Assembly (NCBI RefSeq): GCF_011305535.1
Contig: NZ_CP049905.1
Span: forward strand, 2,945,501 to 3,009,500
Direction: 5' to 3'
Length of the DNA: 64,000 bases
From: Diaphorobacter sp. HDW4B
GTDB taxonomy: Bacteria; Pseudomonadota; Gammaproteobacteria; Burkholderiales; Burkholderiaceae_C
In this document: in pieces, positions 1 to 11,457 of the stretch
How the letters are laid out: each line of letters starts with the position of its first letter
How positions within the stretch are numbered: the stretch's first letter is position 1
Notes under the pieces: model-generated
What the model was told of the DNA's origin: nothing
Databases searched by the model: none
Seen by the model: the letters and a program-made list of their open reading frames with translations, nothing else
Translations under genes and position numbers: made by a program

Positions 1-141
1 TTGGAGGAAAACCGCGCATCGTTGCAGGCGCTGATCCGTTATGCACATTCGCAGGGATTGGTCGGCAAGGAAGTGCAGGCGGACAGCATCTTCATCGATC
101 CGCGCACAGCAGCGGCGGGTGAAGCGGCGAATTGGAAGTGA
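1..141 (+). CDS. C-terminal end of a Pht5-like / periplasmic-binding-fold protein (partial)
   Basis: Frame 1 is open from the window edge to a TGA at 139-141, giving the last 46 residues of a protein whose start lies outside. The tail (NRASLQALIRYAHSQGL) resembles the C-terminal helix of 4,5-dihydroxyphthalate decarboxylase-like proteins and of NitT/TauT substrate-binding proteins. The next gene ends in a comparable helix (LRKVIDYAFDQQMI), so the two are probably tandem paralogues. The downstream gene begins 17 bp later, which points to co-transcription. The function cannot be fixed from this fragment. Confidence 0.55.
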   Translation: MEENRASLQALIRYAHSQGLVGKEVQADSIFIDPRTAAAGEAANWK

Positions 142-8025: not shown

Positions 8026-9117
8026 TCAGGAAATCTTGGTCTCCAGATCCGAGTCGCTTTCTTCGTCCGGCACGTAGATGCGTGCCACGACGGGCTTGGT
8101 GAGGGTGGCGATGAAGCCGAAGCGTTCGTCGGGCGGCAGCAATTCCTGAATCGCCTCGAACAGTTTGACGGGGGCCATGCCCTTGCTCATCAGATTCTCG
8201 ACCTCGGGTTGGTCCGAGGTCCATTCGCTGCGCGAGAGGGCGCGCGCGGCGATGTCTTCGTCCATGAGGCGGCTGTGGATGAAGACCAGGTCGTGCTGCA
8301 CCTGGTCCCATTCCTTGGCGGAGATCGATCCGCTTTGCAGCAGGTGGGCCTTGAGCGCGTCGTCGAGTGCGTCGAGCAACGATGTGCGATGGTCTTCGTA
8401 GCCCATGCGCCATTGCGCTTCGCTGAGTTCGGGTTGTTTCTGCCCCAGTCGCGAGGCATTTTCCACGGCTCGGGTGCGGTATTCATCGAAGGTCGGCAAG
8501 GGGCGCGCGAGCTGGTAGTCGGTGCACTCGGCGTAGAAGCGCGTGTTGAGCGCCTTGATGTTCTTGGGCGTGATGTTGATGACCTGCGACTTCACGGGTT
8601 GATCGCGCATCCATTGCGTGACTTCCCGCGCGGAGGTGCCCAGCGGAAACTGCTTGTACTGGATATGCGGCGGGTAGTCCTCGGGGCGGTAGTACGGGTT
8701 CGTGCCCGCACCGAGCACGCTGCCGTCTTCGTAGAAGCGGATCACGTCAACACTGGTGAACATGTCGCGGCATTCCATGACGAGCGCGAGCGAGCCGTCC
8801 TTGTGATGCGCGCCGCTCCACAGTCGCGCATAGGGCATCTCGGGGATGGCGTAGCGGCCGGTCGAGCGGTACGACAGCGCCTTGAACTCGTTCATGTACT
8901 CCTTGACCAGCGGATCGCGGAACTCGATCTTTTCGAGCACCATGGTGATGCGCGGCTGAATCGGTGCAACGCCCGACGAACCCATGCTGGCGGCCGCGTT
9001 CACGATGTCGCCCAACTGGCGTTTGAAATAGTGCTTGAGGCCGTACTTGAGCAGCACGGCCAGCGCCAGAAAGCACAGCAGCACAGTGACGAGCACTGTC
9101 ATCATGGTGGACAGCAT
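8026..9117 (-). CDS. membrane-anchored protein of unknown function
   Basis: The 363-residue product has one N-terminal hydrophobic helix (about 5-25, TVLVTVLLCFLALAVLL) followed by a basic stretch (KHYFKRQ), then a soluble, charged domain with no domain I recognise. Tryptophan- and tyrosine-rich blocks (TNPYYRPEDYPPHIQYKQF, AQWRMGYEDHR) and an acidic C-terminus (DEESDSDLETK) are visible. Topology would be one membrane anchor with a large soluble domain. It is transcribed away from the rtcB-prfH module and shares its upstream region, which contains a direct repeat. Its 3' end faces the Bug gene with an 18 bp gap. No function is proposed. Confidence 0.75.
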   Translation of the reverse strand: MLSTMMTVLVTVLLCFLALAVLLKYGLKHYFKRQLGDIVNAAASMGSSGVAPIQPRITMVLEKIEFRDPLVKEYMNEFKALSYRSTGRYAIPEMPYARLWSGAHHKDGSLALVMECRDMFTSVDVIRFYEDGSVLGAGTNPYYRPEDYPPHIQYKQFPLGTSAREVTQWMRDQPVKSQVINITPKNIKALNTRFYAECTDYQLARPLPTFDEYRTRAVENASRLGQKQPELSEAQWRMGYEDHRTSLLDALDDALKAHLLQSGSISAKEWDQVQHDLVFIHSRLMDEDIAARALSRSEWTSDQPEVENLMSKGMAPVKLFEAIQELLPPDERFGFIATLTKPVVARIYVPDEESDSDLETKIS

Positions 9118-9139
9118 GCTTGGTGAAGGAATTGAAATT

Positions 9140-9196
9140 TATCGATATGTAGATGATGATAGTTTTTGTGTTATTTGTCACGTATCGATTTGTAGA
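9140..9196. repeat. pair of 14-bp direct repeats in a divergent intergenic region
   Basis: TATCGATATGTAGA at 9140-9153 recurs as TATCGATTTGTAGA at 9183-9196, 13 of 14 identical, with starts 43 bp apart (about four helical turns). The stretch is markedly AT-rich compared with its surroundings. It lies just upstream of the membrane-protein gene ending at 9117 and of the rtcB leader, so it could be a regulator-binding pair. No regulator is identified. Confidence 0.5.
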
Positions 9197-9269
9197 AGCC
9201 TTGGAAGCCCCCGTGGATTGACACTGCTGCGTGAACACAACGCATGTTCGCAACGCCGTACTGCATCGC

Positions 9270-9298
9270 TTGCTATCACTCATGTGCGTCGTTAGACT
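9270..9298 (+). promoter_or_regulatory. candidate sigma-70 promoter before the rtcB leader
   Basis: TTGCTA (9270-9275) and TAGACT (9293-9298) are separated by 17 bp and each match 4 of 6 consensus bases. They lie about 75 bp before the start of the short leader ORF. A TTGACA at 9218-9223 is a better -35 but has no convincing -10 at 16-18 bp. Low confidence without mapping of transcript ends. Confidence 0.3.
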
Positions 9299-9372
9299 TT
9301 GTCGCTTGTTTCGTGCGCAACGCACCCAACAGTTCTCTTTTTCCTCATCACTCAAACGCAAGGAGCAGCATC

Positions 9373-9444
9373 ATGAACAAGACTGCAGAACAACAAAAAG
9401 ACCGCATCGTTTGCCGCGTGAACGAGGTGGCCGCGCAGGCCTGA
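9373..9444 (+). CDS. short leader ORF (23 codons) upstream of rtcB-prfH
   Basis: An ATG at 9373 follows a strong ribosome site (AAGGAG, 7 nt spacing) and opens a 23-residue frame (MNKTAEQQKDRIVCRV...) ending at TGA 9442-9444. The peptide has no signal or membrane segment. The site is far stronger than that in front of rtcB, 233 bp downstream. It is followed by a pyrimidine-rich run and two stem-loops. A leader-peptide role, with its translation reporting ribosome state, is an inference. It may instead be a free-standing micro-protein or untranslated. Confidence 0.45.
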   Translation: MNKTAEQQKDRIVCRVNEVAAQA

Positions 9445-9676
9445 GTTTCTTTTCTCTTTCTTTGCTGTCGGGCGTTTTCAACCCAACTGGTTGAGGCGCT
9501 TGCGCATCCAGCCCACAGGGCGTTGATCCGTTCATCACGGGATCACGCCAAGGTCTGACAGACAGAGCCCATCCGGACTGCCCGCCGCTCGCGTTCATCG
9601 CGATGCAAGCACGCATGTTTTCGCGCAGCGTTTTTGCACGCTCGCGAAGGATTTCTCCTGTTCGGATTTCATTCTC
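9445..9676 (+). other. structured leader between the short ORF and rtcB
   Basis: A pyrimidine-rich tract (TTTCTTTTCTCTTTCTTT) follows the short ORF. It is succeeded by a hairpin TCAACC/GGTTGA with loop CAACT (9478-9494) and a second, longer stem-loop, GCGTTGATCCGT pairing with ACGGGATCACGC (9520-9548) with two bulges and a 5-nt loop. Neither has a terminator U-tract. No gene was found in these 232 bp. A role in regulating rtcB translation or transcript stability is possible. Confidence 0.45.
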
Positions 9677-10852
9677 ATGGGCAATACCCCCATTTCTTTT
9701 CAGCAAGGCGACGCGGCGCAGGTGCGCGTGTTTGCCAACGAGCGCGTGTGGCTTGAAGACGCCGCGCTCGAACAACTTCGCATCACTGCCCGGCTCGCGC
9801 ACATCCGCGCGGCAGTCGGCCTGCCGGATTTGCATCCCGGTCGCGGTTATCCCGTGGGTGCGGCGTTCTTTTCCGTGAATCACTTTTATCCCGCTCTGGT
9901 GGGTGGAGACATTGGCTGCGGCATGGGGCTGTGGCGCACCGACTTGCGCGCGCATTCGGCGTCGGCAAGCAAGTTTGAAAAGCAGCTTGGCAGCATCGAC
10001 GGGCCTCTGCCTGATTCGTTGATGGACGACGCGCTGAGGCAGCTCGACGGCATTGCCATCGACCACCTTCCGGCAACCCGCGAGATGCTCGCGCAAAGCT
10101 TGGGCACGATCGGCGGCGGCAACCATTTTGCGGAGTTGCAGGTGGTCGACGAGGTCTATGCCAAAGACGACGAACGCATCGACAAGAAGCGCGTGCATCT
10201 GCTGGTGCACAGCGGCTCGCGCGGGCTGGGTGGCGCGATTTTGCGCAAGCATGTGGAGCTGTTCGGGCACGCCGGTCTGGCGGCCGACTCCGGTGCGGCG
10301 CGCGAGTATCTTGCCGAGCATGATGCGGCGCTGGACTTCGCGTGCCTCAATCGCATCTGGATCGCACGGCGCATGCTGCAGGCGATTCGCGCGGAGGCGG
10401 AGTTGCTGCTCGATGTGAGCCACAACCATGTGCTGCCCGCAGTGCACGACGGCGAATCGGGCTTTCTGCACCGCAAGGGCGCGACGCCTGCGGACCAGGG
10501 GCTGGTGATGATTCCGGGCTCGCGTGGCGACTACAGCTATCTGGTCGAACCGGTGACGGATCGGCACGAGGCGCTGGATTCGCTCGCGCACGGCGCGGGT
10601 CGCAAATGGGCGCGCACCGATTGCATGGGCCGTCTTTCGCACAAGTTCAAGTCGGACGAGTTGCGCAAGACGAAGTTCGGCAGCACGGTGATCTGCAACG
10701 ACAAGGAACTGCTGTACGAAGAGGCTCCGCAGGCCTACAAGGATGTGGACTCGGTCGTCGCTGCGTTGGTGGATGCCGGGCTGGTGCGCTTGATCGCGCG
10801 CTTCAGGCCGCTGCTCACCTACAAGAAAGGAGCGCTGGTCCCATGCTGCTGA
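9677..10852 (+). CDS. rtcB: RNA-splicing ligase RtcB (PrfH-associated type)
   Basis: The 391-residue protein has every RtcB landmark: GGDIGCGMG (Mn ligands Asp78 and Cys81), GTIGGGNHF (His150), VHSGSRGLG (His178), SHNHV, RKGATPA, GSRGDYSYLV and LAHGAGRK with the guanylated His305. RtcB joins RNA 2',3'-cyclic phosphate or 3'-phosphate ends to 5'-OH ends using GTP and Mn2+. Its start at ATG 9677 has only a weak ribosome site. Its last 10 bp overlap the next gene, prfH, so the two are translationally coupled. Pairing with prfH marks it as the RtcB2 type thought to mend 16S rRNA cut in the decoding centre. No rtcR or rtcA is present. Confidence 0.93.
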   Translation: MGNTPISFQQGDAAQVRVFANERVWLEDAALEQLRITARLAHIRAAVGLPDLHPGRGYPVGAAFFSVNHFYPALVGGDIGCGMGLWRTDLRAHSASASKFEKQLGSIDGPLPDSLMDDALRQLDGIAIDHLPATREMLAQSLGTIGGGNHFAELQVVDEVYAKDDERIDKKRVHLLVHSGSRGLGGAILRKHVELFGHAGLAADSGAAREYLAEHDAALDFACLNRIWIARRMLQAIRAEAELLLDVSHNHVLPAVHDGESGFLHRKGATPADQGLVMIPGSRGDYSYLVEPVTDRHEALDSLAHGAGRKWARTDCMGRLSHKFKSDELRKTKFGSTVICNDKELLYEEAPQAYKDVDSVVAALVDAGLVRLIARFRPLLTYKKGALVPCC

Positions 10853-11457
10853 TGTTGGTACAGATCACGGCCGCGCAAGGGCCGGCCGAGTGCGAGCGCG
10901 CGGTGGACATCGCCCTGCGCGCCATGTTGCGCGATGCGGTAAAGCACGGCGTGGATTTGCAGATCGTGGAGGAAAACGCCACGACTTTTGGGTTCAAGTC
11001 GGTGCTGTTGCAGGCGCGTGGTGATGCGGCGAGTGGCTGGCTGCGGCAATGGGAGGGCAGTGTGCAGTGCGTGTTTGCCAGCCCGTTCCGTCCGGGCCAC
11101 AGGCGCAAAAACTGGTTTGTGGGCATCCGGCGCTGCGAGGTGCCCGAGCAGGGTGCGTCGCTGGACGAGCTTGATGAAAGTGACTTGCGCTTTCAGGCCT
11201 GTCGCGCTTCGGGCAAGGGCGGGCAGCATGTGAACACCACGGATTCCGCCGTGCATGCAACGCATCTGCCGAGCGGCATCTCCGTGAAGGTGATGACCGA
11301 GCGCAGCCAGCATGCCAACAAGCGGCTGGCCAAGGCGCTGATCGCCATGAAGCTGCAGCAACTGGCCGAGCAAAGCGCCGATGCGGCCAGGCACGACCGC
11401 AATCAGCAGCACTGGTCGCTGGAGCGGGGCAATCCGGTGCGGGTGCTGCGCGAGTAA
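10843..11457 (+). CDS. prfH: peptide chain release factor homologue PrfH
   Basis: The 204-residue protein is a short class-I release-factor relative. The catalytic GGQ loop is intact (ASGKGGQHVNTTDSAV, Gly126-Gly127-Gln128), followed by the usual SGISVKVMTERSQHANKRLA helix region. The N-terminal part (about 1-105, with ASPFRPGHRRKNWFVGI) replaces the RF1/RF2 codon-recognition domain. ATG 10843 lies inside the end of rtcB, a 10-bp overlap. Work on the E. coli rtcB2-prfH operon indicates that PrfH releases peptide from ribosomes with damaged 16S rRNA so that RtcB2 can religate it. The same job is inferred here. Confidence 0.93.
   Translation: MLLMLVQITAAQGPAECERAVDIALRAMLRDAVKHGVDLQIVEENATTFGFKSVLLQARGDAASGWLRQWEGSVQCVFASPFRPGHRRKNWFVGIRRCEVPEQGASLDELDESDLRFQACRASGKGGQHVNTTDSAVHATHLPSGISVKVMTERSQHANKRLAKALIAMKLQQLAEQSADAARHDRNQQHWSLERGNPVRVLRE

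Follow-up and report, generated by a model that had tools for sequence, protein, structure and literature searches.

Operons that place rtcB2, which encodes an RNA ligase of the RtcB family, next to prfH, the gene of peptide chain release factor H, are already a known kind and were described in 2006 (PMC1586002; this and the other papers are cited from partial texts). In Escherichia coli ATCC 25922, rtcB2-prfH shields the cells from colicin E3, with PrfH acting on the cleaved ribosomes and RtcB2 then religating (PMC9223846). Here we analyse an operon of this kind in Diaphorobacter sp. HDW4B, within a stretch of 64,000 nucleotides (nt) of contig NZ_CP049905.1 (positions 2,945,501 to 3,009,500, forward strand; hereafter the window), together with a short open reading frame (ORF) that precedes it and is referred to as the leader ORF. 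The locus is probably a rescue and repair operon gated by a leader-peptide translational attenuator that would sense failure of early elongation, and the best reading of this attenuator is as a relative of PA5471.1-armZ in Pseudomonas aeruginosa.

In P. aeruginosa, the rtcB2-prfH kind is represented by PA5471 (ArmZ) and PA5470 (PrfH), and ArmZ, which can derepress MexXY, is controlled by the 13-amino-acid leader peptide PA5471.1 (PMC3516279). Ribosome-targeting drugs induce ArmZ via PA5471.1 (PMC3516279, PMC12057347, PMC13041342). The level of ArmZ is raised by deletion of the leader with its spacer or by an amber mutation at codon 3, and the leader substitutions Q3K and F4L cause no rise in wild type (PMC13041342). 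Compared by description rather than by sequence, PA5471.1-armZ resembles the window locus in having an RtcB-family gene adjoining prfH and, about 250 bp upstream, a short leader ORF (PMC3516279), and differs in its 13-codon peptide, in the transcription attenuation proposed for it, and in the action of ArmZ on MexXY. In the E. coli toiL-topAI-yjhQ system, likewise compared by description, an upstream ORF senses several classes of ribosome-targeting drugs through the accessibility of a ribosome-binding site (RBS), and what it controls is a toxin-antitoxin pair rather than ribosome repair (PMC12121999).

The principle of leader control is thus already known. Translational attenuators of the ermC type combine a leader peptide with alternating helices: a stalled ribosome leaves the RBS free, and the stall is specific to both drug and peptide. 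Unlike these, the rtcB2 leaders have an unconserved peptide, and the reading frame over their RNA motif shifts between clades. No report of leaders before rtcB2-prfH outside Pseudomonas was found in searches of one open-access library, and a term search of the partial text of PMC9223846 returned none of the words "leader", "upstream" and "untranslated".

The E. coli operon has the same two genes in the same order, and the RtcB2 of the type strain (L137; numbers of this form denote loci) is 52% identical to that of the window. Its leader differs, having 15 codons (MTNPLSMTLCRPFQD), a Shine-Dalgarno (SD) energy of -12.7, an ATG 112 nt before the rtcB2 ATG, and 64 nt between the leader stop and rtcB2; in the type strain record (L137 stretch) it is unannotated. 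The E. coli leader region, taken as at least 80% of a 154-nt query, occurs in 5339 of 5426 E. coli genomes, and a query comprising the leader, spacer and rtcB2 of a relative is covered to at least 80% in 1411 of the 5426. K-12 MG1655 has annotated pieces of both rtcB2 and prfH, all incomplete.

The leader ORF in the window and in related loci

The ORF, SD sequence and promoter-like site of the window leader (Table 1) are present and conserved, and a translated leader is predicted. The original prediction had given the locus as 9373..11457. Its end stands, whereas 9373 marks the ATG of the 23-codon leader ORF instead of the beginning of rtcB; this ATG precedes that of rtcB by 304 nt, and the ORF is in a different frame. 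The length of 23 codons and the stop are kept in L051, L150, L042/L052, L040/L060 and L053, and L040/L060 keep this leader form with an RtcB2 that shares only 62% identity with the window protein. The spacer between leader and rtcB2 in the window clade measures 207–247 nt. The elements TTGC and TAGACT with 17-nt spacing are found also in L150, L042, L053 and L040; a stricter scan for promoter consensus did not list the TTGCTA-17-TAGACT site of the window. The tract that follows the leader stop has equivalents with 24/30 (L150), 25/30 (L042), 27/30 (L040) and 21/30 (L053) pyrimidines and is a possible candidate for a Rho loading site. Rfam gave no match in the whole 64-kb window, the best match in 9100-9700 reaching 20.7 bits where the gathering score is 80. 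An early idea, that a tRNA-like Y RNA lies beside rtcB, was left unsupported by the Rfam search of the leader.

Table 1. Coordinates of the operon, its leader and predicted pairing segments in the window, and of a second repair locus elsewhere in the genome.
Feature	Position	Strand	Remarks
Sigma70-like promoter TTGCTA-17 nt-TAGACT	9270..9298	+	read from sequence, upstream of leader ORF
Shine-Dalgarno AAGGAG of leader ORF	9360..9365	+	anti-SD duplex energy -7.7 kcal/mol
Leader ORF MNKTAEQQKDRIVCRVNEVAAQA	9373..9444	+	23 codons, stop TGA
Segment 2, end of leader ORF, GTGAACGAGGTGGCCGCGCAGGCCTGAG	9418..9445	+	predicted to pair with segment 3
Pyrimidine-rich tract right after leader stop	9445..9474	+	23/30 pyrimidines
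Segment 3, ATCCGGACTGCCCGCCGCTCGCGTTCATC	9571..9599	+	alternative partner of leader end
rtcB2 (RNA ligase RtcB family, PRK09588/TIGR03073)	9677-10852	+	391 amino acids
prfH (peptide chain release factor H)	10843-11457	+	204 amino acids
Second RNA repair locus (RtcB1, RlaP, RtcA, RtcR, Rsr/Ro60-like)	L050:3501-9276; G000:C1:2589458-2590003		same genome

For comparison across loci a leader was defined as an ORF of 8–30 codons that begins with ATG within 400 nt before rtcB2 and has an SD energy of -7.0 or lower. By this rule 57 of 65 distinct beta- and gammaproteobacterial loci, E. coli included, have an SD-led leader before rtcB2; the 65 are the loci with an assigned start and a distinct last 120 nt, and their recount contains 49 distinct leader peptides. 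No start could be assigned in L133 and L165, and L038 gave no match. In hand-made lists, a leader precedes rtcB2 in 16 of 18 loci from beta- and 21 of 22 from gammaproteobacteria, and in 7 of 36 others, where dinucleotide shuffles lead one to expect 0.3, 0.7 and 2.2, respectively; these lists counted L126 as "other" and omitted L134, L135, L142 and L143, all of which the recount includes. A subset of 40 beta/gamma loci holds 37 leaders versus about 1 from shuffles. As controls, other long ORFs in the beta/gamma loci have a leader by the same rule in 15 of 252 cases, and in 3 of 28 when restricted to those whose upstream 150 nt contain no ORF of at least 100 amino acids. In another set of 20 loci, drawn from the genus and the order, every locus with an assignable start has a leader (19/19); L147, L148 and L149 of this set duplicate sequences already encountered. 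Of 46 loci, 39 have a promoter-like site, TTGNNN-16..18-TANNNT, in the 160 nt before the leader, compared with 4.3 in shuffles; it begins with TTGC, not TTGA, in 31 of the 39.

Searches by sequence pattern were less productive. A strict element pattern matched 17 of 168 loci examined, some of them overlapping, and none of 369 class genomes; because six of the latter carry rtcB2, this pattern is insensitive. With a looser pattern, 22 of 298 family genomes gave 23 matching places, at most six of which resemble rtcB2 leaders.

Two further occurrences may be recorded here. A Klebsiella pneumoniae IncC plasmid (NZ_CP086440.1, L140), typed as conjugative, carries rtcB2-prfH beside sul1 and with a leader ORF, MQNTSTSFAGLVR. 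Melainabacteria/Obscuribacterales bins L080 and L082 have similar short ORFs, MLQSTSREESDTLITLP and MLQSTSRERSDMLITLP, upstream of rtcB2, which are perhaps an independent leader.

Predicted RNA pairing and opening of the rtcB2 ribosome-binding site

Many leaders contain TTTGCAG or a variant of it. In enterics it is read as LCR; Delftia, Vibrio, the Klebsiella IncC plasmid and L131 read it as FA and then V, G or D. Because clades read this motif in differing frames, the comparison suggests that selection holds the leader RNA rather than the peptide. The leader element GCAGnnn is complementary to nnnCTGC upstream of rtcB2, and the n positions covary: 59 of 78 flanking positions pair, the permuted mean being 45.7, and none of 2000 permutations reaches 59. 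This count refers to the 26 of 46 loci that had both anchors (20 were without them), and its score is lowered because L161, L162 and L164 look mis-anchored.

In 15 compact leaders, the sole helix returned by RNAalifold joins the leader to the downstream segment, with two-sided changes in three of its six pairs, a covariation term of -0.5 and pairing in 93.3% of cells. Taken together with a second, poorly kept helix, it is paired in 75.6% of cells (71.8% when shuffled, reached by 13 of 500 shuffles; at most 47.5% when the set is slid) and has a covariation score of 0.216 (2 of 500 shuffles). A helix between the downstream segment and the rtcB2 RBS is paired in 78.6% of cells (75.1% when shuffled, 2 of 500; at most 45.9% when slid), with a covariation score of 0.134 (4 of 500 shuffles). 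The two helices are mutually exclusive because both use alignment columns 136-138. On this comparative evidence, the leader:downstream helix is a prediction with good support and the RBS helix one with moderate support.

Pairing between leader and spacer was also tested in two further runs. In the first, in which L043 and L066 were mis-anchored, the mean z was -2.47 over 23 loci; a rerun by another anchor rule, in which an anchor was lacking in 6 of 46 loci and L162 and L164 were mis-anchored, gave p<=0.05 in 24 of 40 loci and z +0.70 for the window. A hairpin between SD and leader is clear in most enterics, in the Vibrio locus and in the Klebsiella plasmid locus (mean z -1.87 over 23 loci). 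It was rejected as a universal part, being absent from the window (z -0.02) and not clear in L063 (p 0.155).

Within the genus of the window, segments 2 and 3 pair with modelled probabilities of about 0.95 when the leader is free, and a partner of segment 2 stands at the corresponding place in L041, L150, L040 and L053; L042 has no corresponding partner. Segment 3 contains GGACTGCCCGCC, which is kept in six of the seven rows of the genus alignment, in which row g683 is without its first 28 bases and row pcu52 is short. In 15 other leaders, a CTGCC segment equivalent to segment 3 can pair with the leader or, alternatively, with the start region of rtcB2.

For 46 loci chosen by hand and 13 further loci first left out, the energy needed to open the rtcB2 site from -18 to +6 was computed for two ribosome positions, at the leader stop and stalled at codon 2. 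Opening is costlier with the ribosome at the leader stop in 43 of the 46 and 11 of the 13 (54/59); the difference exceeds the mean of 40 shuffled leaders in 45 and 10, respectively (55/59), and has p<=0.05 in 28 and 7 (35/59). The Wilcoxon value for the 46 loci is 2e-13, the loci not being independent. An earlier run had given the same direction in 22 of 23 loci. In the window the modelled cost is 12.5 versus 8.5 kcal/mol, a difference of about +4.1 (p about 0.02).

Assignment of the operon, second repair locus and distribution

The RtcB frame of the window contains both GGDIGCGMG and LAHGAGRK, the PrfH frame has an intact GGQ in the context SGKGGQHVN, and the two frames overlap by 10 bp, all as originally read from the sequence. 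RtcB scores 505 bits against NCBIfam PRK09588.1 (cut-off 407) and 491 bits against TIGR03073 (cut-off 271.8), and PrfH scores 236 bits against TIGR03072 (cut-off 166.65), all well above what chance would give; the solved PrfH structure closest by sequence is 7sa4 (E = 3.3e-49).

The genome encodes a second RtcB, which remains under both cut-offs with 140 bits on TIGR03073 and 173 on PRK09588. This RtcB1 lies about 370 kb from the operon in a cluster with RtcA, RlaP, RtcR and an Rsr/Ro60-like protein, the last of which scores 77 bits against the 900-bit cut-off of the NCBI Rsr model and passes the Pfam vWA_Ro60 and TROVE cut-offs. The sole RtcR match (C1:2589458) and the sole RTC_insert match (C1:2583728) of the genome both fall outside the window, in agreement with the earlier observation that the window holds neither rtcR nor rtcA. 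The RtcR-RtcBA linkage of the Rtc system is thus lacking at the window operon. Because the other RtcB is under both cut-offs and stands beside RtcA, RlaP and RtcR, the window operon is assigned by its sequence to the RtcB2-PrfH kind, separate from the Rtc system; the predicted pairing of RtcB2 rather than RtcB1 with PrfH is borne out by scores above the cut-offs of subfamily models, on which, and not on a tree, the RtcB1/RtcB2 assignment is based.

PrfH exceeds its cut-off in 17 of 299 family genomes. At E<=1e-90, RtcB2 is found in 17 of 399 order genomes, 6 of 369 class genomes and 5 of 6 genus genomes; in the sixth genus genome (G231), PrfH passes its cut-off and the RtcB2 (L040) shares 62% identity with the window protein. 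The RtcB2 of Diaphorobacter caeni is the closest among named records (93%), followed by those of metagenome bins labelled Comamonas (82%) and Comamonadaceae (81%); that of D. aerolatus has 62% identity. A pyruvate kinase gene lies downstream of rtcB2-prfH, and the divergent neighbour (8026-9117, minus strand) encodes a 363-amino-acid protein without a Pfam or NCBIfam match.

Proposed mechanism and alternative explanations

In the proposed attenuator, transcription would start from a roughly constitutive promoter upstream of the leader. Healthy ribosomes would reach the leader stop and mask the leader segment, so that the downstream segment could fold onto the rtcB2 start and keep the operon off. 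Ribosomes that initiate and then stall in the first codons, because of a drug, cleavage of the decoding centre by a toxin, or uncharged or damaged tRNA, would leave the leader segment free to pair downstream, and the rtcB2 site would open. PrfH, whose gene would be coupled to rtcB2 by the 10-bp overlap, would by analogy with E. coli free the peptide from the damaged ribosome, and RtcB2 would religate the 16S rRNA; the operon may accordingly protect from decoding-centre toxins, as the original prediction proposed. General ribosome stress beyond toxin cleavage is plausible as the inducing signal because the PRK09588 cluster includes the leader-controlled PA5471/ArmZ. Support for such a switch appears good in many relatives and moderate in the window; the switch would be broader than known leader control and differently built.

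Several results weigh against this switch. The RNA evidence in the genus of the window is weak: the energy of the duplex between leader end and spacer is no better than in shuffles (z +0.74), a covariation term of +2.6 is unfavourable, and the SD:leader hairpin of other clades is missing. Because of this weakness, the mechanism in the window leans on leader conservation and on analogy with other clades. The opening differences in relatives are smaller, namely 0.19 in L150 (p 0.12), 1.23 in L042 (p 0.27), 1.80 in L040 (p 0.12) and 2.97 in L041 (p 0.05), the direction is wrong in L045, L166, L112, L093 and L110, and the P values are not independent since the loci are related. In the compact leaders, the helix that accompanies the leader:downstream helix is paired in only 52.9% of cells; the two-helix set has six pairs with two-sided changes against 4.6 in shuffles (90 of 500) and ten pair types against 11.4 (468 of 500), and the RBS helix attains a slightly higher covariation score, 0.139, when slid by +3. 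No leader is found by the rule in 8 of the 65 loci (L045, L035, L110, L126, L134, L135, L142 and L143). L134, L135, L142 and L143 belong to one family of the class and L126 is a Comamonas-titled record; L035 and L045 carry an ORF at a similar place, preceded by a weaker SD (-6.6 and -5.6), and L110 has one with an SD of -10.3 slightly beyond 400 nt. Outside the beta- and gammaproteobacteria, the 7 leaders among 36 loci, L126 being one of the 36, compare with an expectation of 2.2. Finally, leader control in P. aeruginosa is described as transcriptional attenuation (PMC12057347).

This last point leads to the explanation that the leader does not hide the RBS but attenuates transcription, with Rho or an intrinsic terminator acting in the spacer. 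It is the published model for P. aeruginosa (PMC12057347, PMC13041342), in toiL-topAI RBS occlusion and Rho act jointly (PMC12121999), and the long spacer of the window clade together with the pyrimidine tract directly after the leader stop leaves room for it. However, a scan for intrinsic terminators only found such sites in the stretch from leader to rtcB2 in 11 of 46 loci versus 7.1 in shuffles, which is hardly an enrichment, the sole such site in 9120-9720 of the window (9677-9693) falls within rtcB2, and the RBS helix is supported in compact leaders; we regard this explanation as rather unlikely. The weak RNA-level evidence in the genus, and the lack of a detected leader in eight of the 65 beta/gamma operons and in most others, would also suit a plain rtcB2-prfH operon that is controlled at its promoter alone and whose short ORF is incidental or an inherited relic. 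The retention of the 23 codons, stop and SD in clade relatives, even in L040/L060 with their divergent RtcB2, and the recurrence and covariation of leaders in other clades make this improbable. More improbable still is that RtcB2 serves mainly as an efflux-pump anti-repressor, as ArmZ does on MexZ, and not as a ligase: it shares the PRK09588 cluster with PA5471/ArmZ, but its RtcB motifs are intact and prfH is retained in the operon.

Returning to the translational attenuator, we propose more tentatively, and with somewhat less than even confidence, that most beta- and gammaproteobacterial RtcB2-PrfH operons, including that of E. coli, could be under a common bistable RNA switch that is read by leader ribosomes, with the peptide free to change, and that would act as a generic sensor of ribosome damage. 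The unannotated leader of the E. coli type strain is now pointed out as testable at once. If the common switch is real, the repair enzymes would be made precisely when ribosomes initiate but cannot elongate. A shared leader switch would give a direct, testable answer to how cut or stalled ribosomes trigger the enzymes that repair them, and would widen the P. aeruginosa ArmZ leader to a general rule.

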